Under the pieces are notes generated by a model. The model was not told where the DNA came from. It ran no database searches and saw only the letters and a program-made list of their open reading frames with translations. A program made the translations under genes and the position numbers. Below are positions 382-28,950 of a DNA stretch of 29,302 nucleotides, in pieces. Within the stretch, counting starts at the first letter, position 1; every line of letters starts with the position of its first letter. Source of the DNA: a virus; IMG/VR virus record IMGVR_UViG_3300008114_000154, positions 1 to 29,302 of that record, one strand, 5' to 3'.

Positions 382-557
382 TAAACGAAATAAACGCTTC
401 ACAGGACGTTATTAAGTATTCAAAAGTTAGTTTGAATAAGTTAAAGAAGATTAAGGAGCTAAAAACGGGAAAAAAAGATGGCGAATGCTTTTGTTCAAAC
501 GTTCGAAGGCGTGTTTGGTTTAAGGATTTCATGCAATGGTTTGAAAGCAATTCTTGA
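354..557 (+). CDS. Small unknown protein with CxC motif
   Basis: This 67-residue frame overlaps the end of the membrane-protein gene by 28 bp and starts with ATG. It has a lysine-rich helical first half and then GECFCSNVRRRVWFKDFMQWFE, a Cys-x-Cys followed by a basic aromatic stretch that reads like real protein. The competing frame from 478 is less protein-like over the shared part, so I favour this one as coding up to its stop at 555-557. Function unknown. Confidence 0.6.
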   Translation: MFEQVELQVINEINASQDVIKYSKVSLNKLKKIKELKTGKKDGECFCSNVRRRVWFKDFMQWFESNS

Positions 558-1071
558 CAAATACATAAACACGAATTACGCTGAGATTAGAAAATACACT
601 AACTATTTTTTAGTGCGAATGAATAGCCGAATAAACGCGGATGTCGTAATAAACAATTCTTACTTATACTTAGTTAAGTTAAACCCCGAGTTAAACACGG
701 AAAACGAAGTTAAAAGCTATCTATTAAACACTATTAAAAAACAAATCATTTGGAATACATCCCAAAGTAATAAAGAAGAGCTTGTGACGGCACTTGAATA
801 CGAACCAAATGAAACGAATGATGATACGGATTTAATATATAAGATAGAGCAGGAACGTAAATATCAGTTATACAAGTCATGTATTGAGATATACAGAAAC
901 ACGATTAAAGACAGAATTAAGTTAATTATATTTGAAGCATACTACGATAAAGGATACACAACAGCCCGAGCAATGGGTAAATACTTTGACCTACCATTTA
1001 CAACTGCTCACTATTGGATTAAAGAAATAAAAGAAGATTTAAAACGAATAAAACTTGAAAATGAAAATTAA
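478..1071 (+). CDS. Sigma-70-like transcription regulator
   Basis: From an ATG at 478 this gives 197 residues, but the first ~22 overlap the better-looking frame of the preceding gene; an in-frame TTG at 541 may be the true start, leaving about 176 residues. The body resembles the short sigma-factor-like proteins of Bacteroidota phages. A helical region-2-like part (INADVVINNSYLYLVK, then EVKSYLLNTIKKQIIW) is followed by an acidic linker (NETNDDTD) and a C-terminal helix-turn-helix like region 4 (FEAYYDKGYTTARAMGKYFD, then LPFTTAHYWIKEIKEDLKRI). The role would be to direct or modify host RNA polymerase, plausibly on late genes since terminase and structural genes follow. Assignment rests on fold-like pattern; promoter specificity is unknown. 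Confidence 0.6.
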   Translation: MANAFVQTFEGVFGLRISCNGLKAILDKYINTNYAEIRKYTNYFLVRMNSRINADVVINNSYLYLVKLNPELNTENEVKSYLLNTIKKQIIWNTSQSNKEELVTALEYEPNETNDDTDLIYKIEQERKYQLYKSCIEIYRNTIKDRIKLIIFEAYYDKGYTTARAMGKYFDLPFTTAHYWIKEIKEDLKRIKLENEN

Positions 1072-1977: not shown

Positions 1978-3129
1978 ATGGAATTAAATTCTACTATTAT
2001 CTTTGAAAAGAACTTTGACGCACTTCAAAATAAAGAGGTGCGTTTTGTTATTAATGAGGGTGGAAGTAGGTCAAGCAAAACATATTCACTTTGTCAATTG
2101 CTAATCGTTTATAGTTTACAAAATCCTCAAAAGGTAGTTAGTATTATTCGAAAGACTTTTCCTGCGTTACGTGCTACGGTAATGCGAGACTTTTTAGAAA
2201 TCTTAAAAGACTTGGATATTTACTCACAGGAACGTCACAACAAGTCAGAACACATCTATACGTTTGATAATGGTTCGATAATTGAATTCTTTTCGGTAGA
2301 CGATGAACAAAAGATACGAGGGCGCAAAAGGGACGTGGCTTGGTGTAATGAAGCCAATGAACTTTATTACGATGACTTCACCCAATTGAATATGCGTACC
2401 GAGTTTAAATTAATATTTGATTACAACCCGTCCGAGTCTTCAAGTTGGTTATATGAGTTACCAAAAGACGAATCAATCCTAATCAAATCTACGTATCGTG
2501 ATAATCCGTTTTTACCTGATAGTATCAAAAAACAAATCGAGGATTTAAAACGAACCGACGAAGCACTTTACCAAATCTACGCTTTAGGTGAAAAGGCAAT
2601 AAGCAAATCAAACATTTACTCAAATTGGACTTTCTTAAATCACAGACCTTCAAAGTTCGTGAATTATGTTTATGGTTGCGATTTTGGGTATAACCATCCA
2701 ACCGCGCTCGTAAGGGTGTACTGGGTAGATAACGATATATTCATTGAAAAGGTAATTTATGAAAGCTACTTAACCACTACGAACCTAATTGACAAAATGA
2801 ATCAGTTGGGCGTAGAAAAACACGTAACGATATTAGCTGACTATTCACGCCCCGAAATAATAGCCGAAATGAATAACGCAGGGTTTGATGTACAAAACGC
2901 TAATAAGGTAGTTAAAAAAGGAATTGATAATATTAAAACGTTTGGAGTATTTTGTGAGGATTCAAAAGAAATAAAAAAGGAATACGATAACTACAAATGG
3001 AAAAAAGTAGGGGACATAATCACGGATGAACCTATCAAATTATTTGATGATGCAATGGATGCGATTAGGTATGCAGTTACTCACATTAGACAAGAGTATT
3101 ACACGGATGATAGTTACTTTGCGTTCTAA
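1978..3129 (+). CDS. terL: Terminase large subunit
   Basis: This 383-residue packaging motor has both terminase domains. The ATPase domain shows a Walker A at residues 28-35 (GGSRSSKT), a Walker B with catalytic acid at about 120-128 (VAWCNEANE) and a coupling motif DYNP at 148-151. The RNase-H-fold nuclease domain shows D235 (GCDFGYNHPTAL), D288 (TILADYSRP) and D357/D358/D361 (LFDDAMDAIRY). It cuts concatemers and pumps DNA through the portal into the prohead. It belongs to the Terminase_3-like group and is slightly short but complete. It follows the small subunit by 47 bp, and its stop overlaps the 29-bp late leader element of the next gene. Confidence 0.95.
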   Translation: MELNSTIIFEKNFDALQNKEVRFVINEGGSRSSKTYSLCQLLIVYSLQNPQKVVSIIRKTFPALRATVMRDFLEILKDLDIYSQERHNKSEHIYTFDNGSIIEFFSVDDEQKIRGRKRDVAWCNEANELYYDDFTQLNMRTEFKLIFDYNPSESSSWLYELPKDESILIKSTYRDNPFLPDSIKKQIEDLKRTDEALYQIYALGEKAISKSNIYSNWTFLNHRPSKFVNYVYGCDFGYNHPTALVRVYWVDNDIFIEKVIYESYLTTTNLIDKMNQLGVEKHVTILADYSRPEIIAEMNNAGFDVQNANKVVKKGIDNIKTFGVFCEDSKEIKKEYDNYKWKKVGDIITDEPIKLFDDAMDAIRYAVTHIRQEYYTDDSYFAF

Positions 3130-3156
3130 ACAAAAACACGAAAAAAATTAATATTG
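3128..3156 (+). promoter_or_regulatory. Late leader element, copy C (upstream of fibre-like gene)
   Basis: This 29-bp stretch starts AAACAAAAACACG and ends TTAATATTG, two bases before the ATG at 3159. Copies of the same length, with matching first 13 and last 9 bases, precede the genes at 13317 and 17629, and a looser copy precedes 15007. It may be a phage late promoter, a transcript leader or a translation enhancer. It overlaps the terL stop codon. Confidence 0.55.
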
Positions 3157-3158
3157 GT

Positions 3159-4763
3159 ATGGCTTACCGCGAAAGACAAAAGATTAGTCAAATGACACCT
3201 AAGGGTGCAAACTTAGCTGCTACTGATTTAATTGAAGTTAGTGAATTAGTAAGTGGCACATACCAAACCAAATCAATTACAGGACTTGAAATAATTAACG
3301 CTGCAAGTGGAGGAACTATAGACTTACAATTTGTAACGGATGTTGGTAACACTACCACAAATGATATTATAGTTGACGTAACTGGTGATGACTTGTCTAC
3401 AATTAGTGACGATACGATAACCGTTGAAAACACGAATGATGGTAGTTACGCACAATTAAACTCAGGCGGTCAACTAATCTTAAAGACGGATGCACAAGCA
3501 AGTGTTTTAAGAAACATTAACGTAACTAATCCAGGTGTTATTCTTGAGTTTCCTGATAAAGCAACAGGAAGTTACACAATAGCAACAACAAGCGATTTAA
3601 CAAGCGGAACAGTTACAAGCGTAGACTTAACTATGCCTTCAGCTTTTACGGTAACAGGTAACCCTATAACATCGAGTGGAACATTAGCAGTTGCAGGAGC
3701 AGGAGTTGTTAGTCAATATGTTCGTGGTGATGGTTCTTTAGCTAACTTCCCATCTGTTTCTGGTGGTGGTGCTTCAACAAGTTATTATTTAAATGGCTCA
3801 GTAAGTCAAGGAACAATCGGCGGTGTTACTTATTACGAAATGAATAAGACGCCAATATTAGGGGTAGGTACTGATTTCATCCGCACAAATGCACAAGGCA
3901 ATGGATACATCGCTTCATTCTTAACTGATGCAAATGACCCTAATTTATTAAAGATACCTGGCGGTAATTGGAATTTAGAATTCTATTTTTCAGCTTCAAG
4001 TGGTGGAAGTACACCTTCATTTTATGTAGAGCTTTATAAATATGATGGAAGTACGTTTACTTTAGTAGCGTCAAATTCTACAAGCCCCGAAATCATAACG
4101 GGAGGCACTTCAATAGATGCTTATTTCACATCTATGAGCGTTCCTGAAACAGTTTTGGTAGCTACGGATAGATTGGCTATTCGAGTTTACGTAACGCCAG
4201 CAGGACGCACGATTACATTACATACAGAAGACAATCACCTTTGCCAAGTCATTACAACGTTTACAACGGGTTTAACAGCTTTAAATGGTTTAACTGACCA
4301 AGTACAAAACTTTTCAACTGGCACAAGTGGAACTGATTTTGGGATTAATTCAACTGGTTCAACGCATACGTTTAATTTACCAACGGCTTCGGCTACAAAT
4401 CGAGGTGCATTAAGTACAACTGATTGGACTACGTTTAACGCAAAAGCGCCAACTGAAGTTAGTATAAACACTCAAACTGTTAATTACACTTTAGCTTTAA
4501 GTGATAACTATAAATTAATCGAGGTAAACAACGCAAGTGCGAGAACAATAACAATACCTACAAATACTGCGGTAACTTTTCCAATAGGAACTCAAATTTT
4601 GATTAGTCAATATGGAGCAGGTCAAGTTACTATTGCACCTGATACTGGAGTTACTTTACGTTCAAGTGGTGGAAAAACTAAAACGGCTGCTCAGTACGCA
4701 ATGGCTACTTTAGTAAAACGCGGAACAAATGAATGGTATTTAGCCGGAGATATAACAACTTAA
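3159..4763 (+). CDS. Tail fibre / appendage-like structural protein
   Basis: This 534-residue protein is rich in Thr, Ser, Gly and Val, with the repetitive beta-strand pattern of phage fibres. The N-terminus (RERQKISQMTPKGANLAATD) and the middle stretch GTVTSVDLTMPSAFTVTGNP then ITSSGTLAVAGAG are typical of Bacteroidota phage and prophage fibres. The C-terminal ~90 residues (TQILISQYGAGQVTIAPDTG then RGTNEWYLAGDIT) resemble a common fibre-tip domain. It probably forms trimers exposed on the virion and may contact the host surface. It comes directly after terminase, an unusual place for a fibre gene, and is preceded by the 29-bp late leader element. Confidence 0.7.
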   Translation: MAYRERQKISQMTPKGANLAATDLIEVSELVSGTYQTKSITGLEIINAASGGTIDLQFVTDVGNTTTNDIIVDVTGDDLSTISDDTITVENTNDGSYAQLNSGGQLILKTDAQASVLRNINVTNPGVILEFPDKATGSYTIATTSDLTSGTVTSVDLTMPSAFTVTGNPITSSGTLAVAGAGVVSQYVRGDGSLANFPSVSGGGASTSYYLNGSVSQGTIGGVTYYEMNKTPILGVGTDFIRTNAQGNGYIASFLTDANDPNLLKIPGGNWNLEFYFSASSGGSTPSFYVELYKYDGSTFTLVASNSTSPEIITGGTSIDAYFTSMSVPETVLVATDRLAIRVYVTPAGRTITLHTEDNHLCQVITTFTTGLTALNGLTDQVQNFSTGTSGTDFGINSTGSTHTFNLPTASATNRGALSTTDWTTFNAKAPTEVSINTQTVNYTLALSDNYKLIEVNNASARTITIPTNTAVTFPIGTQILISQYGAGQVTIAPDTGVTLRSSGGKTKTAAQYAMATLVKRGTNEWYLAGDITT

Positions 4764-4774
4764 AATAAAAACAA

Positions 4775-5047
4775 ATGTCAACAAATTTAATGGGCGAATT
4801 AGTAGCCAACAAAGGAACATTTATTCTAAACAACACGACGGAAAAAACAGCGGTTATCGATGCCATTGTTGTTTTAGAAGATACGGTATTTAACGCTATT
4901 AAAATAGCAGGTTCAGACGTAAAGACGAACTATATCGGAACAGTTGCAACTGCTGTTAAAGCTGGAGCGATTATAACTCCAACTGCGGATTTACAATTTA
5001 GCGGTGTTGATTTAACTTCGGGTAGTGTCGCACTTGTATTAGGTTAG
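4775..5047 (+). CDS. Small virion-associated protein (unknown)
   Basis: This 90-residue protein is rich in Ala, Val and Thr with few charged residues, predicting a small all-beta domain (KGTFILNNTTEKTAVIDAIVVLEDT; LTSGSVALVLG). It lies between two fibre-like genes with 11-bp and 2-bp gaps, so it is probably a small capsid or tail decoration or fibre-associated protein. The role is inferred from position and composition only. Confidence 0.6.
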   Translation: MSTNLMGELVANKGTFILNNTTEKTAVIDAIVVLEDTVFNAIKIAGSDVKTNYIGTVATAVKAGAIITPTADLQFSGVDLTSGSVALVLG

Positions 5048-5049
5048 TC

Positions 5050-5859
5050 ATGTATGGATACGGAAACAGTATGTTCTTAGCAACAACAGGAATATTAGCA
5101 AGACCAAGCGGGGGTATAGACCCAGACGCTCAAGCGTTCATAACAGCGGCTGGAATAACAGACCCTACACAACAAGCGGCTATTAATACTTTGGTAGTTG
5201 ACTTGAAAGGGTATTCAATATGGACAAAGTTCACAGCAATTTATCCAATAGTAGGTGGAGTAGCAAGTTCTCATGCGGTTAATCTTAAAACTCCTGGAAC
5301 TTACAATTTAACTTTTGCAACGGGCTGGACTCATTCAAGCACAGGAATGACTCCTAATGGAAATACATATGCAAGCACTGGAATAAATATTAATAGTGTT
5401 ATGTCATTGAATAGTATGGCTTTTGGTGTATATTCAAGAACCAACAGCTCAGGTAGTCAAACTGCAGGAGCAGGAGCAGGAGCAGGAGGCCAAAATTCTT
5501 GTTTTATTGTTGAGAGATGGACTGATAATGTTTTCTATGGTCAAGTTAATACAACAACCAACACGTCAATTGCAGTAACAGATTCAAGTGGTTTTTATCA
5601 AGCAAGTAGAACAGCATCAAATGCTGTAAGATTAGTTAGAAATACAACTCACGCAACGTCATCAGCTGCATCAACTGCTAAGCCAAATTTATTTTTTTTA
5701 TTTGGTGCAAGGTCAATAGATTTAAGTAATACAGCTATTCAGAATAGCAGTAGACAAATAGCTTTTGGTTATTTATCAGATGGTTTTACACAAACAGAAT
5801 GTGATAACTTATATACAGCGGTTCAAACATACCAAACAACTTTATCAAGACAAGTATAA
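5050..5859 (+). CDS. Tail or fibre protein, possible receptor-binding / lectin-like domain
   Basis: This 269-residue protein has an N-terminal helical part containing DPDAQAFITAAGITDPTQQAAI and DLKGYSIWTKFTAIYPIVGG, a module widespread in phages and prophages of Bacteroidota. A beta-rich domain follows, suggestive of a concanavalin-like jelly roll, ending in DGFTQTECDNLYTAVQTYQTTL. Residues encoded at 5464-5487 form a (GCAGGA)4 hexanucleotide repeat giving an Ala-Gly run. A surface-binding or receptor-binding role is plausible but inferred. It overlaps the next gene by one base. Confidence 0.6.
   Translation: MYGYGNSMFLATTGILARPSGGIDPDAQAFITAAGITDPTQQAAINTLVVDLKGYSIWTKFTAIYPIVGGVASSHAVNLKTPGTYNLTFATGWTHSSTGMTPNGNTYASTGININSVMSLNSMAFGVYSRTNSSGSQTAGAGAGAGGQNSCFIVERWTDNVFYGQVNTTTNTSIAVTDSSGFYQASRTASNAVRLVRNTTHATSSAASTAKPNLFFLFGARSIDLSNTAIQNSSRQIAFGYLSDGFTQTECDNLYTAVQTYQTTLSRQV
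5464..5487 (+). repeat. (GCAGGA)4 hexanucleotide repeat
   Basis: Four perfect tandem copies of GCAGGA encode an Ala-Gly run in the presumed tail protein. Copy-number change would add or remove two residues without shifting the frame. Confidence 0.85.
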
Positions 5860-6089
5860 TGGAAGGTAGAATAGTAACAAACCAACAAGCTCAAGATTTA
5901 CAAGGAGTATTCTTTGACGCAGATACATTTTTAAATTTCGTTCAAGATATTAACGATGTATATTTTTTATTTTTAAGTGAATCAGATGAAGTAGATATTG
6001 CCCCAACTGAGTACGCTTATTTATTAGATATACCGTTAAGTCCTTTTGAGCCTAAGCCAAACCCACCTTTTCCACCAATTGAAGATTAA
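5859..6089 (+). CDS. Small unknown virion-module protein with Pro-rich tail
   Basis: This 76-residue acidic protein (ADTFLNFVQDINDVYFLFLS) ends in a proline-rich stretch (SPFEPKPNPPFPPIED). Its start overlaps the previous stop and its stop overlaps the next start, so it is translated as part of the fibre/tail-tip operon. Short proteins of this type commonly sit between fibre and tail-tip genes in Flavobacterium phages. A fibre chaperone or adaptor role is possible but unproven. Confidence 0.6.
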   Translation: MEGRIVTNQQAQDLQGVFFDADTFLNFVQDINDVYFLFLSESDEVDIAPTEYAYLLDIPLSPFEPKPNPPFPPIED

Positions 6090-7591
6090 TGGCACTAACA
6101 CTAATAGCGAGACCGCAGGATGTAACTCCAGCATATAACCCAATAAAATGGATTGTAAATTCTAATATAAAAAACTACGATGGTTTTCGCTATGTGTTTA
6201 AAATCAAAGATTCGTTAAGTAACATAATTGCAGAATATCGTGTTTTACCAACTTACGGAACTGGCTACGGTGAACAAGACCTTTCGAAATTACTAAGTAA
6301 TTACGTATCGTTTGACTTAAACACGGATTCAACTACGTTTTATCCTGCCACAAACTCTTCTTATACTTATAAGATTGAAACTGGCGAAGAGTACACATCA
6401 CAAGTTAATTACACTTCAACTTTAGTTAATAGCTCTGGCAACGTTCGAATAAACGTAACAAATACTTTTGTAGCTGGTGACCGTATAAACATAAAGCAAG
6501 TAGATGGTGGAGCAGCCAATCCTTATATGGAGGGTTTATTTACGGTGTTAAGTGCAACGGGTTCTTATTTAGTGATTAACTCGCAATGGTCTTTAGTTAC
6601 AAATGCTGCAATAGACGGAACGATAATCTATGCTGATAACAGAAAGACGTACGTAGCGGGAACTGAATATACAAAGAAAGTTTTTAATGGCGCTTTAAGA
6701 TGGTTAGATTTTCCAACATGGGAATATGATGATTTTAATTTGATTGCAAATACAAAAAGATGGTTTACAAACCAACCTACAACTTTTTATAGCACATTAG
6801 GTCAAGATATTTATTTAAATGCAGGAAATCCAAGTGGAAACCCCGAATACGTTATTTTTAAAAACTCAAATGGTGAGTATTTTTACAAAACAATTTCAGG
6901 AACAACTCCTTTAATACATCAAATACCAATAGGCGCAAATAACTATGGTGTATTAACTCCAATAGGTGCGGCAACTTTACCTATGATAAAGACGGATACA
7001 ACGTATTATGAAGTTTACTATTCAAGTGCAAACACGGGAACACCAATTCAAAACTCATTAAAATACAAAATTAACTTAGATACTCGCGTTCAGATTTCCG
7101 AATACCATTGTTTATTCTTAGATAGGATGGGTTCGTTTAGCTCATTCGCTTTTCAGTTAAAGAACTATGAAAGAGGCGAAGTTACACGGGACGAATATAA
7201 CAAAGATGTAACAGGCTTTATTAATACTTTGCCAAGTGTTGACCAATGGAGTTATTTAACGCGCGAAGATGGCTTTAAAACGTTTAATATTAACGTTAAA
7301 AAAACCATTGACCTAAACACCAATTGGATGACTGAAGAAATGAATCGGTATTTCGAAGAGTTAATCACATCACCGCAAGTTTATTTGAAATTAGCTTCGT
7401 ACACAAACACAGAAAACTGGCTTTATCCTGAAGATGAAAGCGGCTGCCCTTTAAGAATACCCGAAAGCACGGAATACCAACCCGTAATAGTTACAAATAA
7501 TCAATACGAAATATTCCAACAAAGAAACAAGAATTTAATTAAGCATTCTATAACGGTACGTTTAGCAAATCAGGACAATATCAATGGTTAG
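6089..7591 (+). CDS. Tail-tip-associated structural protein
   Basis: This 500-residue protein begins MALTLIARPQDVTPAYNPIK, a start seen in Bacteroidota phage and prophage tail proteins, and is beta-rich with many Tyr, Asn and Thr residues. The C-terminal third contains a charged region (YERGEVTRDEYNKDVTG) and ends in RNKNLIKHSITVRLANQDN. It overlaps the 930-residue tip protein gene by 8 bp, and the two are likely physical partners in the distal tail or baseplate. Distal-tail-protein function is inference from position upstream of the tip protein. Confidence 0.65.
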   Translation: MALTLIARPQDVTPAYNPIKWIVNSNIKNYDGFRYVFKIKDSLSNIIAEYRVLPTYGTGYGEQDLSKLLSNYVSFDLNTDSTTFYPATNSSYTYKIETGEEYTSQVNYTSTLVNSSGNVRINVTNTFVAGDRINIKQVDGGAANPYMEGLFTVLSATGSYLVINSQWSLVTNAAIDGTIIYADNRKTYVAGTEYTKKVFNGALRWLDFPTWEYDDFNLIANTKRWFTNQPTTFYSTLGQDIYLNAGNPSGNPEYVIFKNSNGEYFYKTISGTTPLIHQIPIGANNYGVLTPIGAATLPMIKTDTTYYEVYYSSANTGTPIQNSLKYKINLDTRVQISEYHCLFLDRMGSFSSFAFQLKNYERGEVTRDEYNKDVTGFINTLPSVDQWSYLTREDGFKTFNINVKKTIDLNTNWMTEEMNRYFEELITSPQVYLKLASYTNTENWLYPEDESGCPLRIPESTEYQPVIVTNNQYEIFQQRNKNLIKHSITVRLANQDNING

Positions 7592-10376
7592 GATACAAAT
7601 TGAAACAGGATATTTAGATGTTAAAGAAGGAACTAACTTTCCGTTAAACTTTCAAGTAGGTGATATTCGCGATTTAACGCAACGTAAAGGGACTTTCTCA
7701 AAGACTATAACACTAAGCGGTACAAAGAACAACAACACGCTTTTAAACAACTATTACGACGTTAATATAGTAGCAGGAACTTTCGACATTAACAAGTTAA
7801 CTCGATGTACTGTTTTACAAAATGGCGTTCCGATAGTTTCAAATGCTTTACTTCAATTGGTAAACGTCAAAAAGACGCAAATAACAGATGCTTATGAGCA
7901 GGAAGTAGAGTATGAAGTTTTGGTTCGTGATTCACAAGCGGAATTTTATTCTACGATTACCAACTTAGAACTTACTAACTTAGACTTTTCCGACTGTGAC
8001 CATGATTTTAATATTTCAGCGGTAACAGATAGTTGGGCGCATACGCAAAGCGACCATTATAAATACATATTACCGTTTAACGATACTTTAAATTACACGC
8101 TAAATTATTTTAAACCTGCTATTTACGCTAAATCTTATTGGGATAGGATATTTCAAAACGCAGGGTTTACGTATGACTGGCAAGGTTTAAGCGCGTCACA
8201 CTTTGACAAGTTGTTAATACCTTATAATGGCGATGTAAATAACTTTGATTACACGGATTACAAAGTAAAAGCTGAAACACTTTTTACAAGTTCATACGTT
8301 CAGCCGAATCCAGGTTATAACCAAGAATTTACACAACAAATTGTAACGTGGACTGAAACGCTCGATGTACAAAACATATTCAATCCCTCATTAGGTGAAT
8401 ATAGTGCACCATTTAACACTCAAACAAATCAAGGGCAAACATATACTTTTAGTTTTACGTATGCCTATGAAATACTTTTAGTTAATGCGAGTACATCACC
8501 ACCTGCAACAGCTTATTTAAAAATTCAAGACCCTTTCTCATTGGCTTATTTGCCGGGTGAAATTGAATACAATTTACAATTTGAGTTAACAGTAAATGGC
8601 AACAGCGTAGGTTTTGTTCAAGCTATTGATGTTGCTCATGTAGGAGACGGAATTACTACTGTTAGTATTCCAGCCTCAACTTCTTTATCTGTTTTAAGCG
8701 CATCGGGTACAACTACAATCCCGATTCCTGTAAACATAACAGCATCTGACGTTATAGAAATCAAAGCTGGTATATATGTAAATTCTTTATATACTTTTGG
8801 TATAGAAGCAGTTTGGCGTGACACCAACGCAACTTCGGGAGGTTCGAATGTTCAAGTTAACCCACAAGTAGATTTTAGCTTGTTACAGCTTGAGATATTA
8901 CCTTCTAATAACATACAAATTATTAATGGTACGCAAGTTGTAAACGAATACATTCCACAAAAGATTAAGCAATCTGACTTTATAAAAGCTATATTTCAGA
9001 TGTACAATCTTTACGCGTACCCAAACACGGACAACCCTAACGAACTTATATTAGTTTCACGTGATGAATGGTACGATGCAGGGGCTGAGAAAGATTGGTC
9101 TACTAAATTAGCAAAAGACAAAGAGCAGCAACTTATATTTTTACCCGACCTTCAAAAGAAAAAACTAAAGCTAACATACAAAGAAGATACTGATACGGCA
9201 AATGTAACCTATACACAAGCAACCGCAGAGATTTATGGGCAACTTGAATATACATTTGATAATGAGTATGTAAAAGACACGGATACAAAACAATTGTTGT
9301 TTTCGCCAACACCTGTTTCTAAGACTACATTTGATGCTTATGTCCCTATGATAAATGGAATAGCTCCAAATAATAATATTCGTATCTTATATGACGCAGG
9401 AACTAAAAACTGTCTACCTTACTATATTTATGAAAACGAAACTACAGGAATACAGGCTTTAACTTACCCACAAACGGGACATTTTAACGATGCTTTAACT
9501 CCAACCTTTGATATTAATTTCGGGGTTTGTGATTACTACTTTTATTCAACAAGCGTTTTAACAAATAACAACCTTTACAATTTATACTGGCGTAGAACGG
9601 TTAACCAAATTAACGTTGGTAAAATGTTAGTCGCTTCTTTTCACTTAACTGAGTCTGACATTCAAACGTTAAAACTTAACGACAAAATACGTATCGATAA
9701 CAGTTGGTGGAACATTAACAAAGTAATGGATTACAACGCTAACAACGAAGCGTTAACCAAAGTTGAATTAATAAGCATAGATACAGAAATTGATTTGGCT
9801 AATTTTACAATTCCATCTTCAATATTTGTAGGAGACCAAGGAGTAAGCGAAGCAGGTAAAGGCGATGTTGTTATAATTCGTGATAACTCAAACGTTAATT
9901 TAAGCGTGGGTAATGTAGAAGTTTATGGCAAAGGCAACGTTATAGGGCAAAACCTAAAAGGCATTGTTATAGGTGACAATCAAAGCGTAACTGAAAGCGG
10001 AATAACGACAACGAATTTACGAGTAACAGAAACTATAAACGGTGAATCCATAAACACGATACTACCAACTTATAAAAAGTATATCGCTTTAATTAGTCAA
10101 ACAGGCACAGCAAATCCTACGGTTGCCGTTTTAGAAAATACGATAGGAAATATTGTTTGGACTCGCTCATTAGTGGGGGTTTATTATGGGACTTTAACAA
10201 ATGCATTTACAGCTAATAAAACATCGGTAAATATTTCTGGGGTTTATAAAGGTTCAGCACAAGCAATAAGAAGAAATAACAATGAGGTTAATGTTTTTAC
10301 AACGGCAACGCTTACAATTACAGAAACAGATTCTTTGTTAGATGAAACATATATAGAAATAAGAGTTTATCCATAA
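7584..10376 (+). CDS. Large tail-tip / baseplate protein
   Basis: At 930 residues this is the largest protein in the window. The N-terminal part (MVRIQIETGYLDVKEGTNFP; QRKGTFSKTITLSGTKNNN) is typical of large tail-tip proteins in Bacteroidota siphoviruses. The middle is beta-rich with a long insertion (about residues 250-430). The last ~180 residues change character: a Gly/Val/Asn repeat-like stretch (KGDVVIIRDNSNVNLSVGN; KGNVIGQNLKGIVIGDNQS) suggests a beta-solenoid fibre ending in a small distal domain. It probably caps the tail, contacts the host and anchors the tape measure, which is encoded next after a 4-bp gap. Confidence 0.7.
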   Translation: MVRIQIETGYLDVKEGTNFPLNFQVGDIRDLTQRKGTFSKTITLSGTKNNNTLLNNYYDVNIVAGTFDINKLTRCTVLQNGVPIVSNALLQLVNVKKTQITDAYEQEVEYEVLVRDSQAEFYSTITNLELTNLDFSDCDHDFNISAVTDSWAHTQSDHYKYILPFNDTLNYTLNYFKPAIYAKSYWDRIFQNAGFTYDWQGLSASHFDKLLIPYNGDVNNFDYTDYKVKAETLFTSSYVQPNPGYNQEFTQQIVTWTETLDVQNIFNPSLGEYSAPFNTQTNQGQTYTFSFTYAYEILLVNASTSPPATAYLKIQDPFSLAYLPGEIEYNLQFELTVNGNSVGFVQAIDVAHVGDGITTVSIPASTSLSVLSASGTTTIPIPVNITASDVIEIKAGIYVNSLYTFGIEAVWRDTNATSGGSNVQVNPQVDFSLLQLEILPSNNIQIINGTQVVNEYIPQKIKQSDFIKAIFQMYNLYAYPNTDNPNELILVSRDEWYDAGAEKDWSTKLAKDKEQQLIFLPDLQKKKLKLTYKEDTDTANVTYTQATAEIYGQLEYTFDNEYVKDTDTKQLLFSPTPVSKTTFDAYVPMINGIAPNNNIRILYDAGTKNCLPYYIYENETTGIQALTYPQTGHFNDALTPTFDINFGVCDYYFYSTSVLTNNNLYNLYWRRTVNQINVGKMLVASFHLTESDIQTLKLNDKIRIDNSWWNINKVMDYNANNEALTKVELISIDTEIDLANFTIPSSIFVGDQGVSEAGKGDVVIIRDNSNVNLSVGNVEVYGKGNVIGQNLKGIVIGDNQSVTESGITTTNLRVTETINGESINTILPTYKKYIALISQTGTANPTVAVLENTIGNIVWTRSLVGVYYGTLTNAFTANKTSVNISGVYKGSAQAIRRNNNEVNVFTTATLTITETDSLLDETYIEIRVYP

Positions 10377-10380
10377 CGAT

Positions 10381-12543: not shown

Positions 12544-13280
12544 TAAGCTACCAAAGTTTAATAAATAAGATAATTGATTTTTACGATAGTCATTTACAAG
12601 TTAAAAAGGTTGGTTCTGACTTTCGAGAGCAGTTAGAAAACTTTGCCACTAAAGACGAAAAATATCCTTTGGTTTATATTTCTCCAATAGATGCAGCACC
12701 AAGTGAAATGGGATTCACTACTGAAATCAATTTAGAAATCTATTGCTTTGATATTATACAAAAAGACCGAGCAAATATTAATGTAATTCTAAGCGATTGC
12801 CATTTGATTTTAAACGACCTTTATAATTGGTTTTTAAACTCGAACGATTACTCTTTCGATATTGTAGGAGTGCCAACAATGACACCTTTAAATAATGATT
12901 TGTTAGACTATGCTGCGGGTTGGTTAATGACTGTTACGTGTTCAATTAATAACTATACGGATTGCCAAGTTCCGTTGCAAGTAGATACTCCAGTAATAAA
13001 CTGCGATGATTGTGTTCGTGTTCAATTTACTTATGATGGTATTGATTACGATTTTAATGTTCCTAAAATAGAAGATAATCATTTTAATTTAGTAACTGAT
13101 TTGATAACAATAGACATTACTACAGATAACGATGATTGGTTTATAGATTTAACAGGTGAAAGTTTGTTTTATGGTAATTACTCTCAAACATTTAATGATG
13201 GCTGCCCTTTCTTTAATGACTGGATTTATAATTTTGGCGATGCAGTTGAAAACCTTGTGACATCAAATTGCATAGATTAA
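12540..13280 (+). CDS. Probable tail terminator / tail-completion protein with C-terminal extension
   Basis: The first ~145 of 246 residues look like the small alpha/beta tail-terminator fold of Bacteroidota phages (SYQSLINKIIDFYDSHLQVK; then INLEIYCFDIIQKDRANINVIL). The remaining ~100 residues are an extra, acidic, cysteine-containing domain (VINCDDCVRVQFTYDGIDYD; DNDDWFIDLTGESLFYGN) that I do not recognise. The gene lies between tape measure and neck protein, where a tail terminator would fit. Function of the N-terminal part is moderately supported; the extension is unknown. Confidence 0.55.
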   Translation: MISYQSLINKIIDFYDSHLQVKKVGSDFREQLENFATKDEKYPLVYISPIDAAPSEMGFTTEINLEIYCFDIIQKDRANINVILSDCHLILNDLYNWFLNSNDYSFDIVGVPTMTPLNNDLLDYAAGWLMTVTCSINNYTDCQVPLQVDTPVINCDDCVRVQFTYDGIDYDFNVPKIEDNHFNLVTDLITIDITTDNDDWFIDLTGESLFYGNYSQTFNDGCPFFNDWIYNFGDAVENLVTSNCID

Positions 13281-13284
13281 TTTT

Positions 13285-13313
13285 AAACAAAAAGGCGAAT
13301 TAAAATAATATAG
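13285..13313 (+). promoter_or_regulatory. Late leader element, copy A (upstream of neck gene)
   Basis: This 29-bp element begins AAACAAAAAGGCG and ends ATAATATAG, three bases before the ATG at 13317. It matches the elements at 3128 and 17598 in length and at both ends. It fills nearly all of the 36-bp intergenic gap. Confidence 0.55.
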
Positions 13314-13316
13314 AAT

Positions 13317-13730
13317 ATGCCTGATAAAGAATTTAAGCTTAAGTACAAAATAAGAAATAGAGCAGCAAAAGTTTTAAAGCGAGTAATTGCTGAAGATGGA
13401 TTAATAGATACTGGTACGCTTTATGATTCTGTACGTATTAACGCTAAATTTACTACTGAAGGTAACTTAAGAATAGAAATACTTGCTGCTTATTATTTTG
13501 GGTTCTTAAATAACGGCACAATCACAATAGAACCATACGACCTTGTTAGGACATTTAATGTAAGATTAGAACAAGAAGGAATTATCTCTGAAATGTACGC
13601 AAGTTATATCGAATGGCTTTCGGGTAAATACCCATTGGTGCAAGTCGCTGGTATGTTACGTAAAAAACAAAACGTAATCTATGACTTTAATCCGTTATTT
13701 GGCGATTTTTTCGGTGAACTTGAATATTAA
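13317..13730 (+). CDS. HK97 gp10-like neck / head-tail joining protein
   Basis: This 137-residue protein has the pattern of HK97 gp10-type neck proteins: an N-terminal helix (KIRNRAAKVLKRVIAEDG), the common LIDTGTLYDSVRINA segment, then strands including RIEILAAYYFGFLNNGT. These proteins help finish the head-tail junction. It is preceded by a 29-bp late leader element. Its stop codon (13728-13730) overlaps the stop of the convergent reverse-strand gene, leaving no room for a terminator between them. Confidence 0.7.
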   Translation: MPDKEFKLKYKIRNRAAKVLKRVIAEDGLIDTGTLYDSVRINAKFTTEGNLRIEILAAYYFGFLNNGTITIEPYDLVRTFNVRLEQEGIISEMYASYIEWLSGKYPLVQVAGMLRKKQNVIYDFNPLFGDFFGELEY

Positions 13731-14467
13731 ACATTCAATTCTTTACGCATTCCTAAAAAGTTAAATACAAGTATTAACGGAAGTTCACAAACTGCATTAA
13801 ACTTTGTTAAGTCTTCTTGGCATAACATCCATATAAGCTGCTCCCATGCCCATTTTTTATGCTTCTTTTGTTCTTCAACTTCTTTTAACTCTTCGGCATC
13901 CATTTGATAATCCGTTTCAAAATCATCTTCATAGGATTCGGTCATAAGGTTTTTATATTGGTCGATAATACCTTCTCTAAATTTAATGTATTCGGGTAGC
14001 AACCCAAAGACATCTGTAATTGGAAAGTCTAAAAACCAATCTAATCTATCGGTTGAATGATAATTGTAAGGTTCGAGTATTTCATCGCCCCATTCATTAA
14101 CACGAACGCGCCTGTAAAGTATTGCAATGATATTAAGCAACTTTTCAATGTAGTTATCTGAGAAATAAGACTCCAAACTAATGAACTCACCAAGGGTAAT
14201 TTTATTAAATGGCTTTAATTTGTAATCTCCTATTGTATTTTTATAGTGTTTATGAGGTTCATCGCGTATAAACTTAACTTCTAACAATAGTTCTTCAAGT
14301 TCATCTAAGCTTATATCGTCAAAATCTTCAGGATAACAGTCTAACAACGTGCAAAGCACATCAATTTGATAGTTAAACATTCCGTCTTCTTGTGAAAGAC
14401 TACGTAATTCAATAAATGTTTCAATCGTTATTTGATTCCACGCTTTCGGCAGCTTGTTTTTGAGCAT
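13727..14467 (-). CDS. Tail-assembly-chaperone-like protein 2
   Basis: This 246-residue reverse-strand protein starts MLKNKLPKAWNQITIETFIE. It appears to be a longer diverged copy of the neighbouring chaperone-like protein. NQITIETFIEL matches NEITVEEFEKI, an acidic middle follows in both, LLNIIAILYRR parallels IMALMFKR, and FPITDVFGLLPEYIKF parallels TQVAEIAIPYLNFV. It has an additional C-terminal ~75 residues (EEQKKHKKWAWEQLIWMLC…). It overlaps the upstream gene by 47 bp in the +1 (equal to -2) frame and has its own ATG, so a separate start is more likely than the classical -1 slip. Tail chaperones coat the tape measure during tail assembly. Role inferred. Confidence 0.6.
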   Translation of the reverse strand: MLKNKLPKAWNQITIETFIELRSLSQEDGMFNYQIDVLCTLLDCYPEDFDDISLDELEELLLEVKFIRDEPHKHYKNTIGDYKLKPFNKITLGEFISLESYFSDNYIEKLLNIIAILYRRVRVNEWGDEILEPYNYHSTDRLDWFLDFPITDVFGLLPEYIKFREGIIDQYKNLMTESYEDDFETDYQMDAEELKEVEEQKKHKKWAWEQLIWMLCQEDLTKFNAVCELPLILVFNFLGMRKELNV

Positions 14468-14963
14468 GGTTAGAGATTGTTGTAGTTACAAAATTAAGAT
14501 AAGGAATAGCAATTTCAGCAACTTGCGTTCTAAACAGCTTTGATTTATATTTTAAATGCGCCGAGTCGTAATGTTCTGTATTACTTAGGTCGGTTCTTTT
14601 AAACATCAAAGCCATAATATCGGAAACGGAATGACGATTTTCTTTAACAATCATTTTTTCGATTAGCTTCGTATCCTTTACAGATAGTTTCATTTCAGCT
14701 TTATAAGTAAATCCGTCAATTTCTAACTCGGTTACTGCATCTTTAGCTTCGTAGTTATCTGTATTAAACTCTTTTGTCTTTTCAACAAAGTAATTAAAGT
14801 CATCCCATTCATCTTCTTCAATACCTACAACTTCAAAAACTTTAATTTGTTTTTCGATGTTATCCAGTTCCTTATTATTGTGAATAGCAGAAATCTTTTC
14901 AAACTCTTCAACGGTAATTTCATTCATTTTGTTGGCGATTTGCCTACCTAATACTTCAATCAT
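14421..14963 (-). CDS. Tail-assembly-chaperone-like protein 1
   Basis: I choose the ATG at 14963 (MIEVLGRQIANKMNEITVEE), giving 180 residues; a longer frame up to 15008 would overlap the divergent protease start and lacks a plausible leader. The protein is acidic and helical with NEITVEEFEKISAIHNNKEL near the start and HYDSAHLKYKSKLFRTQ toward the end, a pattern I associate with tail-assembly chaperones of Bacteroidota siphoviruses. It is the first gene of the only reverse-strand unit, with a TATATTTG box 17 bp upstream of its start. The chaperone call is inference from pattern and position. Confidence 0.6.
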   Translation of the reverse strand: MIEVLGRQIANKMNEITVEEFEKISAIHNNKELDNIEKQIKVFEVVGIEEDEWDDFNYFVEKTKEFNTDNYEAKDAVTELEIDGFTYKAEMKLSVKDTKLIEKMIVKENRHSVSDIMALMFKRTDLSNTEHYDSAHLKYKSKLFRTQVAEIAIPYLNFVTTTISNHAQKQAAESVESNND

Positions 14964-14976
14964 AGTTATAATTTTT

Positions 14977-15004
14977 GAACAAATATAAATAAAATTTAAT
15001 ATAG
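14977..15004 (+). promoter_or_regulatory. Late leader element, degenerate copy D (upstream of protease)
   Basis: This 28-bp copy starts GAACAAATA and ends TTAATATAG, two bases before the ATG at 15007. It shares the 3' end exactly with copy B (17598-17626) but lacks the central CGAA. It overlaps the reverse-strand TATATTTG box, so the divergent units may be regulated together. Confidence 0.4.
14980..14987 (-). promoter_or_regulatory. Reverse-strand promoter -7 box (TATATTTG)
   Basis: Read on the reverse strand this is TATATTTG, an exact fit to the Bacteroidota -7 consensus TAnnTTTG, 16 bp upstream of the chaperone start at 14963. I see no clear -33 TTG at the usual spacing. It lies in the 43-bp divergent gap and overlaps the leader element of the forward protease gene. 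Confidence 0.5.
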
Positions 15005-15006
15005 GC

Positions 15007-15996
15007 ATGACTAAAGACCTTCCAGTCTATAAAATCACGATTGACCCTGCTTATTCAGATGGCGAAGATTTAGGTATAGAGCAAATTGCTTTTACTTCGA
15101 ATCCTGCTATTAAAGTCAAAGGTATGGCGTTCAATCAATCCGAAAAATTATTGTTTGCTGACGACGTTAAATATCGCATAACAGCTCCTGCAATGATTCC
15201 AATGGAGATTTATAGACGTGACGATGAAAGCGGGGAGTATTACGTTCAATTTAGCGCAGAAACAATCGAGCAGATTCATGTTAAGTTCATGCAGGATTTA
15301 AAGAACAGAGATATCTTTAACTTAGAACACGACCAAGCGCAAACCGTACCTGCATTTATTTTGGAAAGTTGGATAGTCGACAACCCACAATTAGATAAAT
15401 CATTTACTACGTTTGGAATTGAAGTTCCTAAAGGCACGTTAATGTTAACTGCTCAAATTACTGACAAAGAATATTATAACGAGTTAGTAAAAAACGAACA
15501 AATTGGATTTTCTATTGAAGGGTTTTTGGGATTAAAATTAAGTAATCACATAAAACAAAATAACATGAACAAATTACCCGATGGGGAGCACCTAATCGAA
15601 GGTAAAATCTACGTTGTAAAAGGCGGTGAGATTATCGAGATTAAGGACGCACCTAAAGAAGAAGTGGCTATGGAAGACACGGTAGTAGAAGAAGAAGTAA
15701 CAACTGAAACTGAGCCTATCGACGAGCAACCTGCACCCGAAGAACTTGAAGAAGTTGTGGCTGAAGAAGTTGAAATGGCTGTTGACGTAGCTACGGATGC
15801 TGAAGCTGTTTTAGCAATTGTTGCTCCTGTATTAGAAGAGCAAGTTAACAACCTATTAAAGATTATCGCTGACCTAAGAACTCAAATGGAGGAAATGTTA
15901 GCGGAAAGAGCTGAAGACGAAATCGAATTAAAGTCTGAAGTTAAAATGAGTATTGCTGAAAAGTTCAGCGCATTAAATAAATTAAGTAATAACTAA
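15007..15996 (+). CDS. Prohead protease (S78_2/XkdF-like) fused to scaffold-like domain
   Basis: The first ~180 of 329 residues match the XkdF-like prohead protease family (Peptidase_S78_2). Likely catalytic residues are H108 in NLEHDQ and S169 in GFSIEGF, with the typical VPKGTLMLTAQITDKEYY between them. The C-terminal ~150 residues are a very acidic, helical coiled coil (EEVVAEEVEMAVDVATDAEA; LLKIIADLRTQMEEMLAERA) that looks like an assembly scaffold. The protein would organise the prohead and then cleave itself and perhaps capsid subunits. It lies directly before the major capsid gene, as expected. Confidence 0.85.
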   Translation: MTKDLPVYKITIDPAYSDGEDLGIEQIAFTSNPAIKVKGMAFNQSEKLLFADDVKYRITAPAMIPMEIYRRDDESGEYYVQFSAETIEQIHVKFMQDLKNRDIFNLEHDQAQTVPAFILESWIVDNPQLDKSFTTFGIEVPKGTLMLTAQITDKEYYNELVKNEQIGFSIEGFLGLKLSNHIKQNNMNKLPDGEHLIEGKIYVVKGGEIIEIKDAPKEEVAMEDTVVEEEVTTETEPIDEQPAPEELEEVVAEEVEMAVDVATDAEAVLAIVAPVLEEQVNNLLKIIADLRTQMEEMLAERAEDEIELKSEVKMSIAEKFSALNKLSNN

Positions 15997-16014
15997 AAAC
16001 AAATACAAACACAA

Positions 16015-16947
16015 ATGGAAAGAAAATTAAAATTTGATTTGGACATTGAAAACAACGCGTTGCTTTGTCCTAACCCTAACGAGTTCTACTCTCGTGCTTA
16101 TTTAACAGCTGATGTTGCTGATACTTACCGAGCTTTGCCGGGTATCAAATCAAAAACAAAATTAGCTAACGTTGCTTTCGGTTCAATCCTTAAAGCTTCA
16201 ACTTGTAACTTCGAAGCTCCAACTGATACTTTGGACGCTATTGATATCGAAGTTTGTCCATTCTCGGCAATGGCGCAAATTTGTCAGTTTGACTTAGAAC
16301 AATCATTTGTTGCTTTGCAAATGACACAAGGCTCTAATGGTGATTTCTCTGTAGCTTCTTTCATGAACTACTATTGGGGTGAAATGGCTAAGCAAATCGA
16401 AGAGGATATCGAATTAATCAGATGGCAAGGTGATACAGGAAGCGAAAACCCGCTTTTGGCTTTGTGTGATGGTTACTTAGTTAAACTTTGTGGTGATTCA
16501 GCTAACTTGGCTTACACTAATGGTGGTGCTATTGACTCTACAAACGTACTTGATACTTTGAACTTAGTAGTTAATGGACTTCCTGCATCAGTTAGATTTA
16601 AGAAAACAGATTTAAGAATCCGTGTTTCTTCTAACGTTGCTGCTGCTTACGAACTTGCTGCTGCTGCGGGTAACACCTTGACTTATGTTACTGCTCCATT
16701 GCAATCTACTTACTTAGGAATTAAAGTTGTAGTTTGTGAGGGTATGCCAGACAACACTATCGTTGCTTCTTTGAAAGACGATTTAGTTTATGCATTCGAC
16801 GCTGAAGGTGATTCTAAAGCATTGAAAGCAGTTAATTTGACTGATACTGTAGCTGAGCCATATATCCGTACACGTGCAAACGTTAAGGCTGGTTTCTTCT
16901 ATACTAACCCAAGTCAAATAGCTGTTTGGGCTGCTTGTTTTGACTAA
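16015..16947 (+). CDS. Major capsid protein
   Basis: This 310-residue protein is assigned by position directly after the protease/scaffold gene, its length, and a pattern typical of HK97-fold capsid proteins of Bacteroidota phages. It has an N-terminal arm, a helical spine-like region (FSVASFMNYYWGEMAKQIEE) and a C-terminal part with VAEPYIRTRANVKAGFFYT. Codon use is richer in GCT and other strong codons than in neighbours, consistent with very high expression. A short A-rich leader precedes it, and an intrinsic terminator follows at 16965-16988. Confidence 0.85.
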   Translation: MERKLKFDLDIENNALLCPNPNEFYSRAYLTADVADTYRALPGIKSKTKLANVAFGSILKASTCNFEAPTDTLDAIDIEVCPFSAMAQICQFDLEQSFVALQMTQGSNGDFSVASFMNYYWGEMAKQIEEDIELIRWQGDTGSENPLLALCDGYLVKLCGDSANLAYTNGGAIDSTNVLDTLNLVVNGLPASVRFKKTDLRIRVSSNVAAAYELAAAAGNTLTYVTAPLQSTYLGIKVVVCEGMPDNTIVASLKDDLVYAFDAEGDSKALKAVNLTDTVAEPYIRTRANVKAGFFYTNPSQIAVWAACFD

Positions 16948-16964
16948 TCAAAATAAATAATAAC

Positions 16965-16988
16965 GGGGGTGTAAAAACCCCCTATTTT
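16965..16988 (+). terminator. Intrinsic terminator after capsid gene
   Basis: A 6-bp stem GGGGGT (16965-16970) pairs with ACCCCC (16977-16982) around a 6-nt loop and is followed by TATTTT. The T-tract is short and interrupted, so termination is probably partial; the tail tube gene starts only 26 bp downstream. Confidence 0.75.
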
Positions 16989-17014
16989 AAATAACTAAAA
17001 AAAAATATAAAAAT

Positions 17015-17545
17015 ATGTCATGTGAAGCTTTAGAAGGAATTGTTAAGTCGTGCGACAACAACTCTGGAGGGATTTACAAGGTATGGATTAATCAACAAGA
17101 TAACATCGATTCATATACATTGAATCCTACATTAACTTGGACAATTGATTCAATTACTTTGGTAGACCCTGCCGATATTTATACTGAATTCGAAATCCGT
17201 AGAAACACGGGTTCTTATACTGAAGAGGCAGCCATTGATTTAGTTAATGGTTCTTCTTATTACACTCAAACCATTACTTTAATGTTCCATAGAAGAGACC
17301 AATCTAAGTCTCAAGCTATAAAAGTTTTAGGAGCAGGACAACAGTATCTTAACGTGATTGTTCAAGATGCTAATGGTAAGTATTGGTACTTCCCTTTTAT
17401 GCAATTAACTGGAGCTGCTGAAGGTTCGGGTACTGCAAGAGCTGATGGTTCTAAGTATTCCGTAACTCTTACTGCTGAGAATGAGTTTTTAGCATACGAG
17501 GTTACTGAAAGCACGGTTGAATCTGTAATTACTGTAGCACCGTAA
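17015..17545 (+). CDS. Major tail tube protein
   Basis: This 176-residue beta-rich protein resembles the major tail (tube) proteins of Bacteroidota siphoviruses: EALEGIVKSCDNNSGGIYKV at the start, then YYTQTITLMFHRRDQSKSQA, and KYSVTLTAENEFLAYEV near the end. It stacks as hexameric rings to form the tail tube. The gene lies between two intrinsic terminators, which suggests expression is set separately from capsid upstream and portal downstream. Confidence 0.8.
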   Translation: MSCEALEGIVKSCDNNSGGIYKVWINQQDNIDSYTLNPTLTWTIDSITLVDPADIYTEFEIRRNTGSYTEEAAIDLVNGSSYYTQTITLMFHRRDQSKSQAIKVLGAGQQYLNVIVQDANGKYWYFPFMQLTGAAEGSGTARADGSKYSVTLTAENEFLAYEVTESTVESVITVAP

Positions 17546-17571
17546 TTTAAAAGCTTTCTCCAAGCAAAATT

Positions 17572-17597
17572 AGCACTCTTCGGGGTGCTTTTTTTTT
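17572..17597 (+). terminator. Intrinsic terminator after tail tube gene
   Basis: A 7-bp stem AGCACTC (17572-17578) pairs with GGGTGCT (17583-17589), with one T-G wobble, closed by a stable TTCG tetraloop and followed by a run of nine Ts. This is the textbook form of a rho-independent terminator and looks stronger than the one after the capsid gene. Confidence 0.9.
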
Positions 17598-17626
17598 AAA
17601 CAAAAAGACGAACTAATTTAATATAG
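17598..17626 (+). promoter_or_regulatory. Late leader element, copy B (upstream of gene at 17629)
   Basis: This 29-bp element begins AAACAAAAAGACG and ends TTAATATAG, two bases before the GTG at 17629. It starts immediately after the T-run of the terminator. Because transcription should stop there, this copy is the best argument that the element includes a promoter, unless the terminator leaks. Confidence 0.6.
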
Positions 17627-17628
17627 TT

Positions 17629-21002: not shown

Positions 21003-21010
21003 TATATTTG
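21003..21010 (+). promoter_or_regulatory. Early promoter -7 box (TATATTTG)
   Basis: This exact TATATTTG lies 24 bp upstream of the first early gene at 21035, a typical leader length. The -33 region is AT-rich without a good TTG, so it may need an activator or be weak. Confidence 0.55.
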
Positions 21011-24704: not shown

Positions 24705-24727
24705 TATATCATACAAAAACACGAATT

Positions 24728-25021: not shown

Positions 25022-25209
25022 ATCAATTAAAAATGTATCGTGTTTTTAAAGTTTACGATTTACTTCAAGAACGTCCAAGAACCATTCCAACGATTTGTAG
25101 ATATTTGAATGTAAGCGAAAGAACTGTTTACCGGTACTTTGATTTATTTAAGAATTTAGGGTTTGTAGTTCAAAAACACGAATTTAATAAATACCAAATA
25201 AAAAGATGA
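25018..25209 (+). CDS. Small winged helix-turn-helix protein
   Basis: This 63-residue protein is nearly all a DeoR/HTH_11-like domain: FKVYDLLQERPRTIPTICRY then LNVSERTVYRYFDLFKNLGF, with a recognition helix around SERTVYRYFD and a wing VVQKHEFNKYQIKR. It could regulate phage or host genes. It is translationally coupled to both neighbours by ATGA overlaps. Confidence 0.75.
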   Translation: MNQLKMYRVFKVYDLLQERPRTIPTICRYLNVSERTVYRYFDLFKNLGFVVQKHEFNKYQIKR

Positions 25210-26117: not shown

Positions 26118-26125
26118 TATATTTG
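26118..26125 (+). promoter_or_regulatory. Promoter -7 box (TATATTTG) before recombination genes
   Basis: This exact TATATTTG lies in the 74-bp gap before the ERF gene, 28 bp upstream of its ATG. The -33 region is T-rich without a clear TTG. It probably drives the recombination operon. Confidence 0.6.
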
Positions 26126-28890: not shown

Positions 28891-28920
28891 TTGTTATATT
28901 AAAAAATGTAATTATATTTG
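28891..28920 (+). promoter_or_regulatory. Promoter: TTG-N19-TATATTTG
   Basis: TTG at 28891-28893 and TATATTTG at 28913-28920 are exactly 19 bp apart, the best match in the window to the Bacteroidota promoter consensus. It lies 30 bp upstream of the zinc-finger gene and would drive it and the genes across the join, perhaps including the sigma-like gene. Confidence 0.8.
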
Positions 28921-28950
28921 TTCAACAATTAACAATTAAAAACACGAATT

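Follow-up and report, generated by a model that had tools for sequence, protein, structure and literature searches.

What reads the short A/T-rich element that stands directly before several late genes of the virus record IMGVR_UViG_3300008114_000154? The stretch analyzed, here called the window, comprises positions 1 to 29,302 of that record. Its ends repeat exactly over 114 bases (1-114 = 29189-29302), and because of this repeat the genome is probably complete, either circular or terminally redundant. From its host-type TATATTTG boxes and its nearest cultured phage, we infer a host among the Bacteroidota. A preliminary description of the window had reported a 29-bp element shared by late genes, with a phage-specific promoter or a translation leader as its possible role. 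Our reading, to which we give a probability of about 0.65, is that these elements are late promoters read by a phage-encoded sigma factor, giving leaderless or nearly leaderless late mRNAs. It draws on sequence, conservation, spacing, position, and a predicted fold. From the sequence, the element is likely a promoter and the late mRNAs are likely leaderless; recognition by the phage's own sigma factor, where a structure model enters the argument, is probable.

The full pattern, AAACAAAAA-NN-CG-7(A/T-rich)-(T/A)TAATAT(A/T)G, is 29 bp long. A pattern search recovered the three copies first described, at 3128-3156, 13285-13313, and 17598-17626, with no change in length; they end 2, 3, and 2 nucleotides (nt) before the starts at 3159, 13317, and 17629, respectively. 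When up to 3 mismatches were allowed, the window yielded these three copies only, against 0.02 expected in shuffled sequence, an expectation that refers to a pattern derived from the very copies counted. The looser copy reported before the protease gene is also present (14977-15004) and stops 2 nt before the ATG at 15007. The copy at 17598 starts on the first base past the T-run of a terminator, as had been noticed, and the hairpin is stable (RNA fold of 17550-17597, -14 kcal/mol, z -3.3). By itself, the core is no rarity in the window: 60 matches to TTAATATWG with one mismatch were found versus 48 expected, and 4 of 100 shuffles reached 60. With so frequent a core in an AT-rich genome, it is the combination of parts and their position that carry the argument. 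A fixed-position 7-mer test within the window alone did not bring up the element, the evidence for which is from relatives. Features are collected in Table 1.

Table 1. Features of the window; negative numbers are positions relative to the start codon
Feature	Position	Strand	Remarks
Predicted extracytoplasmic function (ECF)-type sigma factor, unannotated gene	541..1071	+	176-177 amino acids (aa); TTG start; upstream of terminase genes
Late promoter-like element	3128..3158	+	Before structural gene 3159; AAC at -30, AATAT core at -9
Late promoter-like element	13285..13316	+	Before gene 13317; AAC at -31, AATAT core at -10; one extra base before start
Late promoter-like element, looser copy	14977..15006	+	Before protease-like gene 15007; AAC at -29, AATAT core at -9
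Host-type TATATTTG box	14980..14987	-	Of minus-strand genes; overlaps plus-strand late element
Intrinsic terminator, hairpin and nine T	17572..17597	+	From sequence and RNA fold
Late promoter-like element	17598..17628	+	Before gene 17629 (GTG start), directly after terminator T-run; AAC at -30, AATAT core at -9
Host-type TATATTTG box	21003..21010	+	24 nt before gene at 21035
Host-type TATATTTG box	26118..26125	+	28 nt before Erf-like gene (Erf match)
Host-type TATATTTG box	28913..28920	+	30 nt before ATG at 28951

The check proposed earlier, a search for the element in relatives, was carried out on loci from scans with the large terminase and the portal protein (the best 80 loci each of longer lists, some of which share contigs). 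We scored a loose core, AATATA or AATATT, and a strict core, AATATAG or AATATAAG, over distinct upstream sequences. The loose core was kept before the start in all 42 relatives for gene 3159 (strict in 32), all 27 for gene 15007 (strict in 25), and all 32 for gene 17629 (strict in 31); for gene 13317, both forms were found in 18 of 42. Twenty other starts were tabulated. Seventeen of them gave no strict match in any relative, g10381 and g17015 gave one each, and g6089 gave 21 of 41; the loose form occurred at g10381 in 2 of 34 and once each at g7584, g478, and g26675. Most printed g6089 rows with the element have TTCTAA upstream, resembling the end of the window's terminase gene, and from these sequences the element seems tied to the location and not to the gene; locus L235 is an exception. 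In a later set of loci, the distinct rows printed had the core in 10 of 13 cases for homologues of 3159 and in 3 of 12 for g6089. The elements are located mainly at the heads of late transcription units. One further candidate, TTAATATTG before 19822, was rejected, being kept in the counted form by none of 20 relatives.

Not all of the 29-bp motif is conserved to the same depth. The exact copies stand, and AAC and the core are kept, but the CG followed by seven bases is confined to close relatives; the AAC block and the AATATA core persist in more distant ones. Core variants go with groups of relatives, TACAATATAG in one, GCAATATAAG in another, and TTAATATATAT in a third, with the start a few bases on.

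Enrichment and strand counts were made on the same kind of material, and common ancestry persists in all of them. Among 7-mers having at least 15 contexts, counted 2 to 4 nt before starts, AATATAG had the top enrichment score (94 of 474 distinct contexts versus 5.0 expected). With near-duplicates removed at 80% identity, 37 of 267 copies of AATATAG alone fell within 1 to 7 nt upstream of a start, the distance being exactly 2 nt for 24; for eight permuted words, the number in this range was between 4 and 17. When AAC was required 17 to 19 nt upstream, 49 copies remained, of which 29 were at starts, all on the plus strand, and permuted cores with AAC gave 0, 2, 2, 2, 1, and 7 at starts, the 7 coming from a word that overlaps the true core. 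A later scan of 32 independent loci returned 8 copies of AAC plus core, all on the plus strand; 3 were at starts of open reading frames (ORFs) of at least 60 aa, and 3 others have, in the printed sequences, an equally spaced ATG. In that scan, no copy of seven permuted cores was at a start; of 105 copies of the core alone, 12 were at starts. A looser pattern, applied to 41 distinct loci that were each 15 kb or longer, matched ahead of starts 76 times on the plus strand and 0 times on the minus strand (permuted cores, 1 to 11). The proposal of a phage-specific late signal holds up in these data: the element is kept at late-gene heads, rare at the other tabulated starts, and not found before starts on the opposite strand.

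To describe the geometry, 36 sites were aligned with +1 as the A of the start codon at the commonest spacing. T is found at -35 in 31 sites, at -34 in 25, and at -32 in 26, followed by AAC at about -30 to -28; further on come T at -12 (22 sites), A at -11 (21 sites), and C or T at -10 (35 sites), and then AATATAG at -9 to -3, a position fixed by site selection. AAC lies 17 to 20 nt before AATATAG in 29 of the 36 sites and at 18 nt in 20. Judged from the sequences, two blocks near -35 and -10 whose spacing hardly varies are the layout of a sigma-dependent promoter that leaves no leader. It had been pointed out that, with a -10 box at this place, transcription would begin at the start codon or within it; the spacing does fit a transcript beginning at the start codon, and for that reason the mRNA is likely leaderless. 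The -10 block has the position, relative to the start codon, of the TANNNT signal found about 12 bp before the starts of bacterial leaderless genes (PMC3160421; here and below, statements cover the part of each cited paper available to us). TA at -12 is found in part of the phage relatives, not in the window's four sites. Those genes are cellular, whereas here a phage late set goes with an apparently private sigma factor.

The candidate for that factor is encoded at 541-1071. Among the homologues listed for its protein, 62 are distinct (two are fragments), and 30 were placed in an alignment; the TTG start of the window corresponds to M in 19 of the 30. AlphaFold2 modeled two helical domains joined by an uncertain linker (residues 76-95), with a mean predicted local distance difference test score (pLDDT) of 80.8 and a predicted template modeling score (pTM) of 0.42. 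Foldseek against the PDB ranked first 9n9q chain C (E 7.8e-4, probability 1.00, 173 columns). The entry is an RNA-guided transcription complex, and the chain would be its sigma subunit; SigH and SigL came next, and, to go by their titles, sigma-factor structures make up most of the 50 rows shown. In the model, the two domains follow the sigma-2/sigma-4 order without sigma-3. VIA-align gave Z values up to 8.2, which can be common for helical models. It placed model residues 1-75 on the -10 domain of SigC (2o7g_B; Z 6.4, root mean square deviation [rmsd] 2.9, 71 aligned) and the sigma-4 fold on 3mzy (Z 7.6, rmsd 2.2, 72 aligned) and on sigma-E region 4 (2h27_D; Z 7.1, rmsd 2.7, 69 aligned). Among viral structure models, the top match is unnamed and 44% identical, and many of the next ones are named sigma factors. 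Because of this predicted fold, we assign 541-1071 to the two-domain ECF-type sigma factors as a prediction. A tblastn search of cultured phages with the protein gave no match at E 1e-3. A weak PF08281 match at 25084-25137 lies in a different gene.

The sigma gene itself carries further signals. In one group of relatives, ATACAATATAGGTAT occurs within its 3' end, and in some relatives an ATG follows the intragenic core by 2 nt, with a possible overlapping frame (56 aa in L039, which has a variant core). In L053, the start next to the intragenic copy is 17 nt on; as sequence, this layout suits a promoter better than a translation signal, and a coding constraint on IQYRY could also account for it. 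Separately, ATACAATATAGGTATG is found inside the 3' end in L037, L042, L082, and others, where it could open a small overlapping frame. At its other end, the gene overlaps the end of the upstream ORF 354-557, the C-terminal part of which appears conserved in relatives.

The early region is organized differently. Its genes have host-type TATATTTG boxes with leaders, in agreement with the preliminary description (at 21003, 26118, and 28913 on the plus strand; at 14987 on the minus strand). The same-strand gene string that follows the 28913 box continues across the circular junction as far as the sigma gene and the terminase genes, and the gene order suggests that the string, sigma gene included, is one operon. 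At the protease-like gene the two kinds of signal share bases within 14980-15006: AACAAATATA of the late element is TATATTTGTT of the host-type box on the opposite strand. As speculation, early and late use could exclude each other because of this overlap. The host sigma-A promoter of Bacteroidota, TAnnTTTG, has its box at -12 to -5 in Flavobacterium psychrophilum (PMC9723704), a position similar to that of the phage late core; the sequence is unlike, and leaderless mRNAs are a minority in those hosts. A second short leader, AAAACACGAA(TT), stands directly before ATG at 24711-24727, 28937-28950, and 1488-1495 and is possibly a translation leader; ACACGAA is enriched 2 to 4 nt before starts (30 of 393 contexts versus 4.1 expected).

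We infer from these results a pairing of sigma factor and element, the transcript ends, an early and a late timing, and leader-free translation, as follows. Early-region genes, apparently including the string with the sigma gene, would be expressed from host-type TATATTTG boxes with normal leaders. As the sigma factor accumulated, late units would be opened: host core RNA polymerase carrying the 541-1071 protein would read the AAC of the -35 block and the -10 block, (T/A)NNAATAT(A/T)G in the window, and would start transcription at the start codon or no more than about four bases from it. The late mRNAs so made would have no leader or almost none.

Comparison with cultured phages gave a parallel case. 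By portal protein, Nonlabens phage P12024S (NC_018271) is first among them (24% identity over 74%). Its gp33, upstream of terL, is noted as Sigma-70 region 2 and matches PF04542 at 25.3 bits, above the cut-off. All six plus-strand occurrences of CGTTA[AC]TA in P12024S begin exactly 12 nt before annotated starts (five CGTTAATA, one CGTTACTA), and none of three on the minus strand is at a start; CGTTAATA was found 7 times versus 1.9 expected. This core word was chosen by eye from the same starts. In a mechanical test, CGTTAAT at -12 also emerged, with 5 exact sites and 6 within one mismatch. As in the window phage, an A-rich block with AAC or ACA lies upstream of the -10-like core; the core is CGTTAATA/CGTTACTA where the window has AATATAG, and AAC is about 2 nt further upstream (site 5400). 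At four of the six sites, minus-strand genes face away from the site; three of these carry TATATTTG, the fourth TATATTG. Apart from these sites, AATATAG occurs 3 nt before the annotated gp12 start of P12024S (8540-8556).

In Flavobacterium phages 11b and 6H, Polaribacter phage P12002L, and Croceibacter phage P2559S, PF04542 found no match, a profile that misses the window's gene too. The mechanical test in 11b, 6H, and P12002L brought up A/T-rich words only, including AAATATA at -12 in P12002L, and reading by eye of the printed starts, which cover part of the genes, showed no such element in 11b, P12002L, and P2559S. P12024S alone of the five cultured phages has a PF04542 match, and it alone has a comparable element, an association across the five that is suggestive.

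Several observations weigh against late promoters read by a phage sigma factor. Of the relatives, 24 of 42 are without the element before the 13317 gene, and 6 of 41 loci are without any; 20 of the 49 copies of AAC with AATATAG are away from starts, ten per strand. AAC is missing from 7 of the 36 aligned sites, and spacing from element to start varies from 1 to 6 nt among near sites. The window's four sites read ATT, AAT, TTT, and TTT before AATAT, not TAY, and TA is absent at -12. Words of the loose form AATATW are found, too, before 17015 in 22 of 49 relatives and before 17973 in 17 of 45; we read the former as a loose A/T-rich leader and the latter as coding sequence of the preceding gene. 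Gene 17629 starts with GTG, usually a poor start on leaderless mRNA in Escherichia coli. As for the protein, the Foldseek template modeling scores are low (0.38 at rank 1, with an rmsd of 20 that reflects domain orientation), as is the pTM. No sigma match was found for it in Pfam (including PF04542 and PF08281), NCBIfam, PHROGs, or PDB sequences, and some relatives gave weak helix-turn-helix (HTH)-type profile matches (Mga, best E 0.0076, 10 of 30; phrog_668 HTH, best E 0.0004, 2 of 30). A profile comparison of the window sigma with that of P12024S, represented by a single sequence, showed no similarity. Our confidence is lowered because TA is missing at -12 and because the test for absence of a sigma gene in the other cultured phages is weak.

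The link between sigma factor and element in the window phage consists of co-occurrence and fold, which leaves room for a promoter read instead by a host sigma factor, either a sigma-A variant or a host ECF factor, perhaps with a phage activator, while the 541-1071 protein acts elsewhere. F. psychrophilum has several ECF sigma factors and variants of the sigma-A motif (PMC9723704), and PF04542, which misses the window's sigma gene, cannot show that four of the cultured phages lack one. However, the core is unlike TAnnTTTG, which is present before early-region genes of the same genome, and the cultured phage with a PF04542 match carries a comparable element. We regard host recognition as unlikely, though by no means negligible. 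The translation leader offered at the outset, in which an A/T-rich stretch of a longer mRNA draws ribosomes that do not use Shine-Dalgarno pairing, we consider improbable. It would suit an element that mostly abuts start codons, and some relatives have loose AATATW words in front of 17015 and 17973; in Flavobacterium, translation is increased by A at -3 and -6 (PMC6847099). Three of the four window sites, however, have G at -3 and not the A favored by the host (A is there in 22 of 41 other starts). The strict form is nearly absent at the other starts tabulated, the element at 17598 directly follows a terminator, two blocks stand at promoter spacing, and in one relative whose sequence was printed, 17 nt separate the copy in the 3' end of the sigma gene from the start that follows.

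The two remaining explanations find hardly any place beside late promoters read by a phage sigma factor. TATAG superficially resembles T7 and mitochondrial promoters, and a T7-like phage RNA polymerase might start at its G; no RNA polymerase was recognized among the 30 window proteins searched with PHROGs, and PF00940 gave no match in the window or P12024S, in a weak search whose control also gave none. This we think very improbable. Least credible of all is that the three exact copies share no function and arose by chance or by a recent duplication. In its favor, the strictness of the 29 bp is confined to close relatives, but 0.02 copies were expected, both blocks are kept while the intervening sequence changes, and the strands differ by 76 to 0.

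The component parts of the proposed arrangement, phage sigma factors and leaderless mRNAs, are each already known. ECF sigma promoters have AAC in the -35 block, as the window element does, and the predicted protein has the two-domain fold of such factors; P12024S has CGTT. Unlike ECF promoters, the window's -10 block is AT-rich and not CGT. Thermus phages phiYS40 and P23-45 make leaderless late mRNAs, a likeness in phage genes without leaders that comes from other phyla. In P23-45, the middle and late promoters are of the extended -10 type, on which a phage inhibitor of the host sigma-A polymerase has less effect (PMC7403470), and a paper on phage AR9 remarks in passing that leaders are often lacking in phage transcripts (PMC5312081). 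In the accessible parts of the literature searched, we met no description of a sigma factor combined with leaderless late mRNAs in Bacteroidota phages.

The two appear to be joined in these phages. Their hosts lack Shine-Dalgarno sequences in mRNAs, and the three species examined make mostly leadered mRNAs (PMC6847099, PMC7366714, PMC9723704): 87% of predicted leaders exceed 10 nt in F. johnsoniae (PMC6847099), leaderless mRNAs are 5.5% of those examined in F. psychrophilum (PMC9723704), and about 3.7% of 5' untranslated regions are under 10 nt in Bacteroides thetaiotaomicron (PMC7366714). A leaderless start is rare in this bacterial group, as far as these sources extend. If our reading is right, it adds a promoter set and a likely sigma family missed by the profile libraries searched, as well as a direct route to leaderless translation in Bacteroidota hosts; P12024S, being cultured, makes the parallel case testable. 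More tentatively, the coupling of a private ECF-type sigma factor with leaderless late mRNAs may have arisen independently in several flavobacterial phage lineages, which we hold to be possible and somewhat doubtful. Were that so, late expression would escape both host sigma-A and the leader-based, Shine-Dalgarno-free selection of starts in one step.

Elsewhere in the window, a stable hairpin at 16965-16982, with no clear T-run, lies between the genes at 16015 and 17015, and an HNH endonuclease gene (24183-24704) is located amid replication-region genes.

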